Shown: piece by piece, positions 5,361-25,400 of the stretch
Numbering within the stretch: position 1 is the stretch's first letter
How the letters are laid out: every line of letters starts with the position of its first letter
Origin: a virus
DNA: 56,613 nucleotides
Virus record (IMG/VR): IMGVR_UViG_3300021137_000017
Coordinates: 1 to 56,613 of that record
Strand: one strand, 5' to 3'
Notes under the pieces: model-generated
Told to the model about the DNA's origin: nothing
The model's input: the letters and a program-made list of their open reading frames with translations, nothing else
The model's database searches: none
Translations under genes and position numbers: made by a program

Positions 5361-5402
5361 GTTTGTGTTGACCCTCCCACCCCTCATCCCTTCGGGATAG
5401 GG
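5361..5402. repeat. Conserved upstream block, copy 2
   Basis: This block starts GTTTGTGTTGACCC, continues with a C-tract and ends with ATCCC-TTC-GGGAT (hairpin, 5386-5398) followed by AGGG. It aligns base for base without gaps with 6801-6842. The minus strand has four G-runs (GGG, GGGG, GGG, GGG) with short loops, a quadruplex-capable pattern. Confidence 0.7.
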
Positions 5403-5514
5403 TGTGAGAGAGATCACATGTGATTTATCTCACATTGTGAGGCCGGTCACAGTGAGCTGCGTCACATGAGATCCAGGTCACACCAGCTCGGGAGAGAGTG
5501 TGACTAGTATCACG
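5403..5514. promoter_or_regulatory. CRP/GlxR-like tandem array C
   Basis: Six TGTGA-N6-TCACA sites lie at 5403-5418, 5419-5434 and 5436-5451 (all perfect), 5451-5466 and 5467-5482 (one mismatch each) and 5499-5514 (one mismatch). The first five are almost contiguous, with starts 15-17 bp apart. The N6 cores GAGAGA, GCTGCG and TCCAGG recur in other clusters, which points to duplication of cassettes. Confidence 0.75.
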
Positions 5515-5598: not shown

Positions 5599-6303
5599 AT
5601 GGACATGGCACTGAAGCCTAGTAAGGACAGGAAAGTTGCTAACTCACTCACACCGTCGGGAGGGGTACGCATTGCGAACTCTTTCGGATTACCTGCAGGA
5701 TTAAATTATTCATGCCCTAGCGCCACAAGTGTATGCTCGAAAGTCTGCTACGCGGGCAAGTTGGAGAAGATATATAAAGGGGTCAAGATTAATCTCACGC
5801 ATAATTGGGATTTGGTTAAGGACGCCGATATGGATCACGTCACTAATCTACTTAACAGCATGATTATTGATTTCATTACTGAATGCGAGCGAAAGGGTTC
5901 GGCTAAGTTATTCCGTATCCATTGGGACGGCGATTTCTTCTCAGACACCTATATTGGCGCATGGCGTCATGTTATTGAAAGTCATCCCGACGTCCGCTTT
6001 TGGGTGTATACCCGCGTGATTCGCGCGACGGTATTACTTAAGGGGATTGATAATCTCGCGCTCTATTTCTCCACTGATAAGGATAATTTCGCGCTCGCTA
6101 AGATTGCGCTTAAGAATGGCGCACGATTGGCGATGTTAGATGAGACTTTCGAAGCAGGACGCGAGCGCCTAGCGTCGATTGGTGAGCGTGGCGCGATGTG
6201 TCCTGAACAGCGTGGTCAGATAGATCTAAACGGCGCGTGCGTCGCGTGCGGGTTATGTATTAAAGGTAAGACTAATATTCTATTTTCAATTACTAAGAAA
6301 TAA
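5599..6303 (+). CDS. GP88-family protein
   Basis: 234 aa. It resembles the phage and plasmid GP88 family (named after a mycobacteriophage gene 88 product): an N-terminal LTPSGGVRIANSFGLPAGLNYSCPSAT segment with clustered Cys (C39, C46, C50), a central FRIHWDGDFFSD stretch, and a C-terminal Cys cluster (CPEQRGQ...CVACGLC). Four C-terminal Cys plus the N-terminal set suggest metal or Fe-S binding. The activity of the family is not established. GGGGG lies 7 nt before the ATG. It opens unit 3 downstream of array C. Confidence 0.65.
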   Translation: MDMALKPSKDRKVANSLTPSGGVRIANSFGLPAGLNYSCPSATSVCSKVCYAGKLEKIYKGVKINLTHNWDLVKDADMDHVTNLLNSMIIDFITECERKGSAKLFRIHWDGDFFSDTYIGAWRHVIESHPDVRFWVYTRVIRATVLLKGIDNLALYFSTDKDNFALAKIALKNGARLAMLDETFEAGRERLASIGERGAMCPEQRGQIDLNGACVACGLCIKGKTNILFSITKK

Positions 6304-6313
6304 GGAGAAGATC

Positions 6314-6598
6314 ATGGGACGTATTTTTGCAGAAGAATTGGCAAGCGGTATTGGTGGCATTACCTTAGAAAGAGGGGTTGCCATTCATATGGCGGGTAAT
6401 CTCTACCCTCCTCCTCCTTCTTACATGGTTCCCGTCGCGATCGAAGCGCTAAATTCGATCTTAATCGAAGATGATTGGGAGAAGGAGATTGATCTTCCCG
6501 ACGGCGTGGAATGGCGTGGGGAGAAGAAGGTTCCCGCTCGATTCGTAATCGACGCGTTCCGGTTAGAAGCTTTTCTAGATGGGGAGGATGAAGAATGA
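6314..6598 (+). CDS. Hypothetical protein
   Basis: 94 aa with AAGGAG 6 nt upstream. The N-terminal part is Gly-rich; the centre has a Pro run (YPPPPSYMVP) followed by acidic strands and helices. No family is recognised. It is cotranscribed with the GP88 gene. Confidence 0.6.
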   Translation: MGRIFAEELASGIGGITLERGVAIHMAGNLYPPPPSYMVPVAIEALNSILIEDDWEKEIDLPDGVEWRGEKKVPARFVIDAFRLEAFLDGEDEE

Positions 6599-6746: not shown

Positions 6747-6777
6747 ACCCTCAGCGCCGATCCGCTGGGGGTTTTTT
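6747..6777 (+). terminator. Terminator ending unit 3
   Basis: A 10-bp stem pairs ACCCTCAGCG (6747-6756) with CGCTGGGGGT (6763-6772), loop CCGATC, followed by a T-run to 6777. Confidence 0.85.
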
Positions 6778-6778
6778 A

Positions 6779-6796
6779 TTCGAACACGTGTTCGAA
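6779..6796. repeat. 18-bp perfect palindrome
   Basis: TTCGAACACGTGTTCGAA is fully self-complementary with a CACGTG core, directly after the terminator. It could be an operator or a cruciform site. It shares the CACGTG core with the parS site 140 bp downstream but is otherwise different. Confidence 0.7.
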
Positions 6797-6800
6797 AAAT

Positions 6801-6842
6801 GTTTGTGTTGACCCACCCTCCCCTTATCCCTTCGGGATAGGG
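6801..6842. repeat. Conserved upstream block, copy 3
   Basis: This block aligns without gaps with 5361-5402: GTTTGTGTTGACCCACCC, a C-tract, then TATCCC-TTC-GGGATA (6826-6840) and GGG. The opposite strand holds four G-runs (GGG, GGGG, GGG, GGG). Confidence 0.7.
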
Positions 6843-6879
6843 TGGAGAGACTTGTCAACTCGACACGCCCGGAGCTGCA

Positions 6880-6921
6880 TGTGAGATTCGTCACACTGCG
6901 GCCGGTGTGATCCAGGTCACA
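6880..6921. promoter_or_regulatory. CRP/GlxR-like sites D1 and D2
   Basis: Two perfect TGTGA-N6-TCACA sites lie at 6880-6895 (N6 = GATTCG) and 6906-6921 (N6 = TCCAGG), starts 26 bp apart. They are immediately upstream of the parS site. Confidence 0.7.
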
Positions 6922-6922
6922 C

Positions 6923-6938
6923 TGTTTCACGTGAAACA
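6923..6938. promoter_or_regulatory. Consensus parS (ParB-binding centromere site)
   Basis: TGTTTCACGTGAAACA is identical to the 16-bp parS consensus recognised by chromosomal ParB proteins from Firmicutes to Actinobacteria. No ParA or ParB gene is visible in this window, so any ParB would come from the host or from the unseen part of the genome. It starts one base after a perfect CRP-like site and lies between units 3 and 4. Confidence 0.85.
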
Positions 6939-6941
6939 AAT

Positions 6942-6984
6942 TGTCGACAAATCTACAAAATCAATGCCCCTGGAAATGTCGACA
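6942..6984. repeat. Pair of TGTCGACA palindromes
   Basis: TGTCGACA occurs at 6942-6949 and 6977-6984, exactly 35 bp apart, each followed by AA. They could be paired half-sites for a dimeric repressor. They sit just downstream of parS. Confidence 0.45.
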
Positions 6985-7085
6985 AAGCGATAAGGCTACT
7001 ATGGAGAGAGAGAAGAGAGAGAGCAGTCGCGTAACCAGATGAGAGACGCCTTCGGCGATCTCCTATCATGATGAGAGAGTTCAGC

Positions 7086-7133
7086 TGTGATGCAGATCAC
7101 ATGGCTAAATGGGGGTATGTGACCTATATCACG
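7086..7133. promoter_or_regulatory. CRP/GlxR-like sites D3 and D4
   Basis: A perfect site lies at 7086-7101 (N6 = TGCAGA) and a one-mismatch site at 7118-7133. The latter ends 7 nt before ATGGTAT, the same geometry as at 5514/5521. Confidence 0.65.
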
Positions 7134-7218: not shown

Positions 7219-7674
7219 ATGACGAATCTATCGGGCGCAGTTTCCCCTACAAAAGACGTCGTAGAAGTGCAAGGAGTGGAGTATCACGTTACTTCTGCAC
7301 CTTGCTTGAATTTCGTTGAACATCCCCACATCGTAGACGGTCAGGGTTGCTATACCTGCCGATCTTCTTCATCCGCATTGGGCGAAACTAACTCAATTGC
7401 AGTCGCTCTCGCTAAGGAGGGTATTGAGTGCCATGTCGCCCAGACTGGCGGTTTCTGCATGGTGGTATATGTCGTCTCAGAAGATAAGACTCGCGCAATT
7501 GGTGCGAACGCTGAGTGCGTTGTATTCGAATCTGACTGGCAGGAGGGTGGCGAAGATCAAGAAACACTTCTTGCCTCGACTGACTGGGATGGTGGCGACC
7601 TCACACCTGAGCAAGTTGCCGAAATTGTTGAAGTCTTCAAGTCTAATCTCTACCGTTTGGAGGTCACCAAGTGA
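7219..7674 (+). CDS. Hypothetical protein, first gene of unit 4
   Basis: 151 aa with AGGAGG 7 nt upstream. The N-terminal half has three Cys and paired His (PCLNFVEHPHIVDGQGCYTC), a possible metal site; the C-terminal half is acidic. No family is recognised. It opens the longest plus-strand unit, behind parS and the CRP-like sites. Confidence 0.65.
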   Translation: MTNLSGAVSPTKDVVEVQGVEYHVTSAPCLNFVEHPHIVDGQGCYTCRSSSSALGETNSIAVALAKEGIECHVAQTGGFCMVVYVVSEDKTRAIGANAECVVFESDWQEGGEDQETLLASTDWDGGDLTPEQVAEIVEVFKSNLYRLEVTK

Positions 7675-10193: not shown

Positions 10194-10361
10194 ATGACAC
10201 AGAACGGATGGACGGAAAACGATGGGTTCTTGTACGCGGATTGCCTAAAGTGCAATGATCGTACGGTACACATTGTGCTTAAACCAAAGGAAGGTTTTCC
10301 ACCGTACGAGTGTGTGCAGTGCACATTCAACTGGGAGAGAGTAGAGAGTGAGGGTCGATGA
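10194..10361 (+). CDS. 55-aa zinc-ribbon protein
   Basis: 55 aa (MTQNGWTENDGFLYADCLKC...). CLKC and CVQC pairs define a small zinc ribbon. Its stop overlaps the methyltransferase ATG (ATGA), so translation of the two is probably coupled. Confidence 0.6.
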   Translation: MTQNGWTENDGFLYADCLKCNDRTVHIVLKPKEGFPPYECVQCTFNWERVESEGR

Positions 10362-11083
10362 AAGCCGTTTCATTATTTGCTGGTGTAGGTGGGTTTGATC
10401 TTGCGCTGCACCGAGCAGGTGTTGAAGTTGTTGCGTCATGCGAAATTGATAAGCATGCACGCGCTGTATTAGAAAAGCAATTCCCAAACGTTCCACTAAT
10501 CAACGATGTAAAGGATGTGACAGGTGATCAACTTAGAGAACTCGGATTCGAAGGTTCTAACGGAATTATTGTCGGAGGATTTCCATGCCAAGATTTGTCC
10601 GTTGCAGGAAAGAGAGCCGGACTTGCTGGAGCTCGATCTGGACTCTTCTGGGAAATCTGCCGTATCCTCGAAGAAACGCAAACGAAGTGGTTCGTCCTCG
10701 AAAATGTCCCTGGATTGTTGTCATCCAACAACGGAGCAGACATGGGAACCGTTATCCAAGCGTTGGTTGAGCTCGGGTATGGGGTCGCCTACAGGATTCT
10801 TGACGCTCAGTTCTTCGGAGTCCCCCAGCGTCGCCGTCGAGTCTTCATTGTTGGATGTCTTGGAGACGACGGGCGATCACCTGCAGAAGTACTTGCTCTC
10901 ATCGAAGGCATGCGAGGGCATTCTGAGAAGAGCGACAAATCGCGGAAAAACTCTACCTTCGCAACTCCACTCAGCACTTCAGGCGAGGGCAGAGATGTAG
11001 CGAACACGATCTCGGCTGAGTTGTATCACCGATCAACGATCGTCAATCAGGATATTAATAATGGTCACCTCGTGGTGGGTTAA
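10358..11083 (+). CDS. C5-cytosine DNA methyltransferase, N-terminal part (motifs I-VIII)
   Basis: 241 aa. It carries the AdoMet-binding FAGVGG (residues 7-12), the catalytic PCQ loop with Cys77, the ENV motif (115-117) and QRRRR (157-161) of the Dcm/HaeIII class. It lacks motifs IX and X, which are in the overlapping downstream frame (11061-11801). The frame ends GHLVVG and a TAA. A +1 shift at GGT-TAA would continue directly into KSRRAQSVHDFE of the next frame, restoring a normal full-length enzyme. It may protect phage DNA from host restriction. Alternatives are a genuine two-subunit enzyme, as in M.AquI, or a sequencing error at the T/A run. Confidence 0.85.
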   Translation: MKAVSLFAGVGGFDLALHRAGVEVVASCEIDKHARAVLEKQFPNVPLINDVKDVTGDQLRELGFEGSNGIIVGGFPCQDLSVAGKRAGLAGARSGLFWEICRILEETQTKWFVLENVPGLLSSNNGADMGTVIQALVELGYGVAYRILDAQFFGVPQRRRRVFIVGCLGDDGRSPAEVLALIEGMRGHSEKSDKSRKNSTFATPLSTSGEGRDVANTISAELYHRSTIVNQDINNGHLVVG

Positions 11084-11801
11084 AAGTCGGAGAGCGCAAA
11101 GCGTTCACGACTTTGAGACATGGGTAGCGGAAGGAGTAGTGCCGACATTGAATGCATTCGAGAATAACGGAGACACACGAGCAACAGTTCTTGTGTTTTA
11201 CAGCGGTACGTTTGGTGAAGTAAGAATTCAGGGAAAGGTGATTAATACGTTGCCAGCAAAAATGGGTACAGGCGGTAATAACACACCGATGGCTGTCTAT
11301 CCGATTCAGGATGGTCGCGAGATGGAGAAGAAACAAAACGGTCTTGGTTTAGGAGAAGATTCTGCACCTGCTTACACAGTTGATACAACTGGTGGGCAAG
11401 CGGTAGCGTATCCAATCCAAGGAACGATGGTTGGTCGTAGTGATACGGCTGGCCCTAATGGAAAAGGTTATGGGGATGTTCAAGATCCCATGTTCACTAT
11501 GGATACTGTTGGAGGTAATGCTGTGGCAATGGTTGGTAACTTTGAGCTTTACGACTTTCCAAAGGAAGAAGTATCACCAAGCCTCAACGCCCGGCGGGCA
11601 AAGGACACGATGGTATATGAAGATGTGCCGTCAATGGTTCGCCGCCTAACTCCTATGGAGTGCGAACGCCTTCAAGGATTCCCAGATAACTGGACAGAAA
11701 TCGGATCCGATTCTCAACGTTACAAGCAAATGGGTAATGCTGTTGCTGTGCCTGTTGTTGAGTGGATCATTAATCGGTTAGTGGAGGTCAATAACAGATG
11801 A
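11061..11801 (+). CDS. C5-cytosine DNA methyltransferase, target-recognition and motifs IX-X part
   Basis: The 246-aa frame begins at a weakly placed ATG (11061), but the natural junction is near 11083. Residues 25-160 contain repeated blocks (AYTVDTTGGQAVA, MFTMDTVGGNAVA) typical of the target-recognition region of phage C5 methyltransferases. RRLTPMECERLQGFPDNW (194-211) is motif IX, and GNAVAVPVVEWI (225-236) is motif X. It overlaps the N-terminal frame by 23 nt in the +1 frame. It is either translated by frameshift fusion or as a separate subunit. Confidence 0.8.
   Translation: MVTSWWVKSRRAQSVHDFETWVAEGVVPTLNAFENNGDTRATVLVFYSGTFGEVRIQGKVINTLPAKMGTGGNNTPMAVYPIQDGREMEKKQNGLGLGEDSAPAYTVDTTGGQAVAYPIQGTMVGRSDTAGPNGKGYGDVQDPMFTMDTVGGNAVAMVGNFELYDFPKEEVSPSLNARRAKDTMVYEDVPSMVRRLTPMECERLQGFPDNWTEIGSDSQRYKQMGNAVAVPVVEWIINRLVEVNNR
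11077..11086 (+). other. Candidate +1 frameshift site in methyltransferase
   Basis: In-frame codons are GTG-GGT-TAA-AAG. Skipping the T of TAA after GGT gives AAA-AGT-CGG, joining ...HLVVG to KSRRAQ. A slow stop codon in the A-site is the classic setting for +1 shifting (as in release factor 2 genes). A strand-specific T insertion error would look the same. Confidence 0.5.
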
Positions 11802-25124: not shown

Positions 25125-25400
25125 TTACAGTGCCTTAACATCAAAAACGATGGCAGAAATCTGACCATCATGGCTTTCAATGTTAGTAAACCCAGTAACA
25201 AAAACAAGGTCGATACCTCGTGGAGCGGTATAACCGCGGGCAATAGTGATGGCTTTTACAGCCTGATTTACAGCTCCAGCACCCACCGCACGCAATTTTG
25301 CTGAGCGTGTTTCGTACATGCTGTGGGCAATTGCGGATGCTACGGATTGTGGGTTGGATCCAGCGCCGACGCGCAGGATTCCTTCTTCTTTTTCTGACAT
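25125..25400 (-). CDS. spoVS: SpoVS-family protein
   Basis: 91 aa, full length for the family. ILRVGAGSNPQSVASAIAHS, then LRAVGAGAVNQAVKAITIAR and GIDLVFVTGFTNIE, align with Bacillus stage V sporulation protein S and its actinobacterial and Thermus relatives along the whole length. SpoVS is an Alba-related, probably nucleic-acid-binding dimer that affects sporulation and septation. In the phage it could modulate host gene expression or cell division (inference). GAGG lies 8 nt upstream, inside the arm of an inverted repeat. Confidence 0.85.
   Translation of the reverse strand: MSEKEEGILRVGAGSNPQSVASAIAHSMYETRSAKLRAVGAGAVNQAVKAITIARGYTAPRGIDLVFVTGFTNIESHDGQISAIVFDVKAL

Follow-up and report, generated by a model that had tools for sequence, protein, structure and literature searches.

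How does a phage in which no partition gene can be recognised come to carry a perfect copy of the bacterial chromosomal parS site, and what might it gain from it? The question is raised by a 16-bp element in a virus record of 56.6 kb. In what follows, the window is the whole stretch of DNA that was analysed, 56,613 nucleotides with a GC content of 45%.

The parS site, its surroundings and its phage

An earlier note on this DNA had described positions 6923–6938 as an exact match to the parS consensus of a kind that would be very rare by chance, and both statements were confirmed. The element has the 14–16-bp consensus palindrome by which parS sites are recognised, and it was the sole match at up to 3 mismatches in a pattern scan of the 56,613 bases of the window. 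The number of exact matches expected by chance is 1.3 × 10⁻⁵ for uniform bases and about 1.8 × 10⁻⁵ for the base composition of the window. Shuffled sequences averaged 0.47 matches when 3 mismatches were allowed, and the weight of the finding therefore rests on the exactness of the match. A chance origin of the site was ruled out by the expectation of about 10⁻⁵ together with the recurrence of the site in relatives, described below. The same site is present in IMGVR_UViG_3300021138_000014, which is 99.6% identical to the window over 6.1 kb.

The site lies in a control region bounded by a plus-strand ORF that ends at 6598 (after which a short ORF may run to about 6717) and by the ORF that starts at 7219. 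A 62-aa minus-strand ORF called mechanically at 6751–6939 overlaps parS and is probably spurious. The features of the region are as follows:

5599–6303, plus strand: GP88-family gene (PF17338) upstream of the control region, used as the query for fetching relatives
6748–6777, plus strand: terminator-like hairpin and T run that closes the upstream unit, read by eye
6779–6796, no strand: perfect 18-bp palindrome TTCGAACACGTGTTCGAA, presumably of the actinobacterial LexA/SOS-box form, unremarked in the earlier note
6797–6843 (about), plus strand: promoter/leader repeat with a UUCG hairpin, common to the phage group; putative promoter
6906–6921, no strand: palindrome TGTGATCCAGGTCACA, which we take to be of the CRP/GlxR type, ending 1 bp upstream of parS
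6923–6938, no strand: orphan parS, TGTTTCACGTGAAACA, exact consensus at 16/16 bases
6941–7002, plus strand: TGTCGACA elements and TAAGGCTACTAT, promoter-like by sequence and alignment, as judged by eye
7219–7674, plus strand: first ORF of at least 60 aa past the control region, without a match in Pfam

The perfect CRP-like site that the earlier note had seen adjoining parS is thus in place. The note had also put parS upstream of the longest early unit; a block of plus-strand ORFs does run from 7219, and its early expression is presumptive. Further CRP-type palindromes are found near parS at 6880–6895 and 7086–7101, and the window contains eight exact TGTGAN6TCACA palindromes in all (3578, 5403, 5419, 5436, 6880, 6906, 7086 and 20892). 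Besides the perfect LexA-form palindrome at 6779–6796, the core of this form also occurs at 2148–2161, and SOS control of the phage is possible from these two palindromes. A second copy of the UUCG-hairpin promoter/leader repeat is located at 5361–5403, matched by 6801–6843 in the copy near parS, and one relative, IMGVR_UViG_3300042511_000631, has five copies. Part of the repeat was searched against cellular genome contigs and gave no match there. Several relatives have TAGGCTACTG as the counterpart of the promoter-like TAAGGCTACTAT.

Among the gene products of the window are a ribonucleotide reductase (RNR), a protein resembling queuine tRNA-ribosyltransferase, a DNA polymerase, helicases and RecA, as well as baseplate and tail-tube proteins. 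A joint scan of further window ORFs and of the continuation of a near-identical contig (G001) added portal, tail sheath, terminase and head proteins, and this set of proteins identifies a contractile-tailed phage. A search of 14 records for a tyrosine integrase gave no match (records may be incomplete). Streptomyces phages account for the six best polymerase matches and for the tail-protein matches, and the 376 GP88 matches include 270 Mycobacterium phages and 101 Streptomyces phages, with CRB1 and RedRock among the nearest GP88 relatives (49–50%). The closest RNR (76%) is that of “Actinomycetia phage DSL-LC01”, from a lake, and a megablast search of window positions 1–25000 against GenBank phages found no relatives. 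An actinobacterial host for the phage is well supported. Two other genes were observed in passing. The sequence of a C5 cytosine methyltransferase is divided between two ORFs (10358–11083 and 11061–11801) that overlap by 23 bases; the two parts overlap in the related stretch L371 too, and the arrangement may represent a bipartite enzyme or a frameshift. A batch scan gave a SpoVS match, and inspection of the translations by eye assigned it to a 91-aa SpoVS-like protein at 25125–25400.

The earlier note had seen no ParA or ParB gene in the window, and this was upheld by Pfam profile searches, in which ParB_N (PF02195) matched 0 of 15 records and the ParA-type ATPase profile AAA_31 matched 0 of 14, the window being included in both sets (records may be incomplete). 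In 14 genomes used as positive controls, ParB_N matched 10/14 and AAA_31 14/14. For the records searched, a ParABS system of the phage's own, with ParA and ParB on the same replicon, was rejected on these counts.

Recurrence and turnover among relatives

Scans with the promoter repeat gave 14 records, or 15 including the window, which we divided into lineages A–F; the division is our own. Seven of the 15 have parS at 0–1 mismatch, always in the corresponding control region, and they fall into four lineages: A (the window and G001, both with exact TGTTTCACGTGAAACA), B (G002, G006 and G012, with AGTTTCACGTGAAACA), C (G013, with TGTTTCACGTGAAACT) and D (G008, with TGTTCCACGTGAAACA). The remaining eight, some of which are fragments, are without parS: G003 (lineage E), G004, G010 and G011 (lineage F), and G005, G007, G009 and G014. 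Each record holds at most one site with up to one mismatch; G001 has an extra match with 2 mismatches.

Counted from where the promoter repeat starts, the core of the site begins at 123–125 bp in lineages A and B and at 290–303 bp in C and D. The existence of two alternative positions suggests that presence rather than spacing is what matters, as would be expected of a clamp-loading site more than of a fixed operator. An alignment of seven control-region sequences had a mean column identity of 51%, with the promoter repeat as its main conserved block. Matches to parS at 15–16 of 16 bases are conspicuous against this mean, and the flanking intergenic DNA can hardly be aligned. The odds that at least three of the six other lineages would carry the site by chance are about 4 × 10⁻¹⁵, a rough figure that assumes uniform bases, 500-bp regions, independence and our own lineages.

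By GP88, lineage A is 60–62% identical to B and C and 62–65% identical to the site-free lineages E and F. The RNR of A is 78–85% identical to that of B, C, D or F, with D at 78.5%; a GP88 or methylase match was absent from both stretches of lineage D examined. Since the site-free E and F are as close by GP88 as B and C, presence of the site is not tied to relatedness, and parS has been acquired or lost repeatedly between lineages. These data support the earlier note in part. It had held that loss or degradation of the site in relatives with conserved flanks would refute its reading, and here the outcome is mixed: 8 of the 15 records do lack the site, the equally close E and F among them, and lineage F has another palindrome at the position of the lineage B site, but 7 keep it at 0–1 mismatch with poorly alignable flanks. 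It had also described a phage that carries parS with no visible ParB gene, which is supported, and the site recurs at 0–1 mismatch in three further lineages. Segregation, titration and silencing, which it had suggested as well, are possible uses of the site.

When 44 records were scanned at up to 2 mismatches, 11 matched, namely the seven above and G028, G031, G034 and G036; a reversed-pattern control matched 1 of the 44. G028, another GP88-bearing record, has an exact parS inside a small ORF, while the sites in G031, G034 and G036 have 2 mismatches and may be due to chance. Among wider relatives parS is rare, which counts against a shared need for it: sites at up to one mismatch were found in 2 of 80 GP88 stretches, 1 of 13 next-ORF stretches and 2 of 17 methylase stretches, all belonging to lineages A–C, with loci that overlap between the sets. 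No parS match with fewer than 3 mismatches was present in seven named phages, namely five that infect Streptomyces together with Gaia and DSL-LC01.

Candidate hosts and possible roles of the site

GP88 relatives in cellular genome contigs were found at 12 loci. Five are in bins labelled as a cyanobacterium (the best match, 56%), Phycisphaerae, Variovorax, Actinomycetota (L398) and Acidimicrobiaceae, and the other seven are in Mycolicibacterium, Geodermatophilus or Blastococcus genomes. The relative at L398 is 60% identical over residues 3–130 and resides in a small binned actinobacterial genome of 1.3 Mb. The low-GC actinobacterial order to which L398 belongs is a plausible, tentative host group for the phage; from its genome sizes (1.1–2.2 Mb) and GC, and helped by PMC10202952, we infer that it is Ca. 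Nanopelagicales. The parS core GTTTCACGTGAAAC was present in 69 of 81 genomes (1.1–2.2 Mb) drawn evenly from this order, with one copy in 58, two in 10, three in one and none in 12. In a second actinobacterial order, 31 of 59 genomes had the core. Six fetched stretches of the candidate order (GC 42–51%) all hold parA and parB homologues, and in one of the loci, L412, ParA, ParB and RsmG (GidB) were confirmed by Pfam, with one parS site at the start of parA and another at that of rsmG. The chromosomal sites thus have the same core as the phage site, but there it goes with parA and parB homologues, whereas here it stands in a phage intergenic region.

The other palindromes of the control region were also looked for in the candidate host. 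The LexA form TCGAACN4GTTCGA occurs in 12 of 12 genomes, against 1 of 12 for a reversed control. The exact CRP-type motif gave 2 matches in 2 of 12 genomes and its reversed control 4 matches in 3 of 12. Since the motif does not rise above its control, a host CRP regulon as the target of these sites is unsupported in the candidate order, and the eight sites of the window are probably read by another protein, or the host is another group.

Host identity, the binding and spreading of ParB and the benefit to the phage are all deduced here from sequence. Once bound to parS, ParB forms a closed CTP clamp, which slides onto the DNA alongside and activates ParA (PMC12704722). A phage with parS should therefore gather host ParB, and recruitment of host ParB by the phage site is likely. 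We propose, with a probability of roughly 0.62, that the orphan parS recruits host ParB and that coupling to host segregation is one of possibly several benefits. Host ParB, as a CTP-dependent clamp, would bind the site, load and spread over the adjoining phage DNA, after which host ParA, and perhaps SMC, would treat the phage genome as they do an origin region. The likeliest use would be to position phage genomes or to share them out during a time when lytic development is on hold or proceeds slowly, as is reported for phi29 in sporulating Bacillus. Competition for ParB between many phage copies and the host's few own sites would be a by-product, possibly a selected one. As the main benefit, coupling to host segregation or positioning ranks first, at somewhat less than even odds. 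If ParB does bind, a tiny DNA tag would give the phage the chromosome-moving machinery of the host without a gene of its own. The phi29 mechanism of spore formers would then extend to actinophages, and the use of ParB by phages could be tested for its part in persistence in dividing cells, in disabling host segregation or in reading the cell cycle.

Two other benefits overlap with recruitment, and segregation coupling, titration and transcription could act jointly. The site might serve mainly as a decoy that strips ParB from the host chromosome after replication and so disturbs segregation and division. With one core parS in 58 and two in 10 of the 81 genomes of the candidate order, the host sites would be outnumbered even at a modest phage copy number, and carriage of two parS sites by a plasmid is reported to be lethal in Caulobacter (PMC5815017). 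A decoy should, however, favour many copies, whereas the records here have one site each at up to one mismatch (phi29 has four), and a decoy could sit at any place, whereas this site is in the control region; as the principal benefit we consider it rather unlikely. That place would suit a local transcription switch, in which host ParB at parS, or spreading from it, represses or times the adjacent promoters and lets the phage read the host cell cycle. The site has the promoter repeat on one side and the TAAGGCTACT element on the other, and is beside CRP-type and LexA-type palindromes; promoters next to parS3 and parS4 are reported to be repressed at raised ParB in Pseudomonas (PMC5521831), and phages that use host CtrA, LexA or Spo0A have been described (PMC9437464). 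The shift between 123–125 and 290–303 bp past the repeat start speaks against such a switch, as does the retention of the promoter elements without parS in E and F, and we regard it as unlikely to be the chief function.

The remaining alternative dispenses with ParB: the palindrome would be read by some other factor, or would form an RNA hairpin in the leader, and its likeness to parS would be coincidental. In lineage F (L371 at 4284, L372 at 4166, and L138), AATTCCACCGGGAATT occupies the position homologous to the parS of B and differs by compensatory changes, and by eye other inverted repeats stand in an alignment of relatives at the position of the lineage C site. The inverted repeats of B, F and C form short hairpins on folding (z −1.9, −1.7 and −1.3), and selection at the position shared by B and F may act on a palindrome or an RNA hairpin and not on parS itself. 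The site of the window itself is unremarkable as an RNA hairpin (z −0.25), however, and by our rough estimate four lineages at 0–1 mismatch are far beyond chance for arbitrary stems, which leaves this explanation improbable.

Known systems and a wider survey of viral contigs

Recruitment of host ParB by a phage parS has a reported precedent in phi29 (Salasvirus), whose lytic cycle is stated to be halted by Spo0A, which allows its chromosome to be entrapped in spores by host Spo0J (PMC9437464, citing Meijer et al. 2005). Phi29 has four TGTTCCACGTGAAACA sites, identical to the site of lineage D, and the Bacillus phages BSTP6 and TBA3 have four each. In phi29, two are inside the late genes 10 and 15, one is just after gene 16 and one is in gene 17. 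According to its annotation table phi29 has no ParB gene, and the window likewise carries parS with no ParB of its own found (records may be incomplete). The phages differ in that phi29 has a 19-kb genome, four sites and a spore-forming host, whereas the window belongs to a larger, contractile-tailed actinophage with one intergenic site in a control region, and the spore benefit of phi29 need not apply to it. The genomic island SGI1 offers a second parallel, as a mobile element whose parS mimics hijack the ParABS of another replicon, the IncC plasmid, in a competition that harms the owner (PMC10954446). There the partners are an integrative element and a plasmid, two sites are involved, and binding and stability have been demonstrated by experiment (PMC10954446). 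Some extrachromosomal cluster A mycobacteriophages, such as RedRock and CRB1, are also actinophages with a partition site, but they encode their own ParA and ParB, and the parS of RedRock consists of repeats of an 8-bp motif (PMC7157519), in contrast to the host-type palindrome of the window, for which Par genes were not found. A report of orphan chromosomal-type parS in actinophages was not found in the titles and abstract openings of the open-licence literature, where the paper on parS in actinophages, PMC7157519, concerns phages with their own ParABS and another kind of site. The kind of arrangement is thus already known from phi29; what is new is the phage group, the single intergenic site in a control region, its turnover between lineages and the neighbouring host-type palindromes.

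Raw counts from IMG/VR were rejected as evidence, with at least 120 matches for exact parS and at least 120 for a control palindrome of the same composition. In 120 exact-parS stretches listed, tblastn with positive controls found no ParA or ParB homologue within the stored stretch. Among the matches listed, an apparent excess of parS outside long ORFs (84/146, against 29/120 for the control) was gone after related loci were merged (51/102 against 19/34, p = 0.69). An excess of loci with several copies persisted after merging (16/102 against 0/34, p = 0.012, among the matches listed); the control set is small and skewed, with one cluster of 75 loci dominating it, and we treat this excess as a lead and not as a result. 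A broader proposal would be that phages of abundant freshwater actinobacteria, presumably non-sporulating, ride the host ParABS by means of a single parS in a hub of host-type control signals, so that lysis is put off and daughter cells each receive phage genomes, and that parasitism through orphan parS is a general strategy that arose several times, in the group of the window, in the phi29 group and in an unrelated set of terminase-bearing contigs (L017, L044 and L053). We hold this extension to be tentative and on the doubtful side.

L017, L044 and L053 have 5, 5 and 3 exact parS copies, respectively, within 0.7–0.9 kb. The terminase large subunits of L044 and L053 are 84–88% identical to that of L017, and no ParA or ParB homologue was found in the stretches. 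Three other contigs, L010, L051 and L071, are phi29-like by collar, polymerase and terminase matches. Two stool phage records are related to L010, of which L425 has no site and L426, phi29-like as well, has two exact sites and two with 1 mismatch. L010, L051 and L071 themselves have 3, 2 and 2 exact and 4, 3 and 2 core copies of parS, and in L010 and L051 there are pairs of sites 24–29 bp apart.
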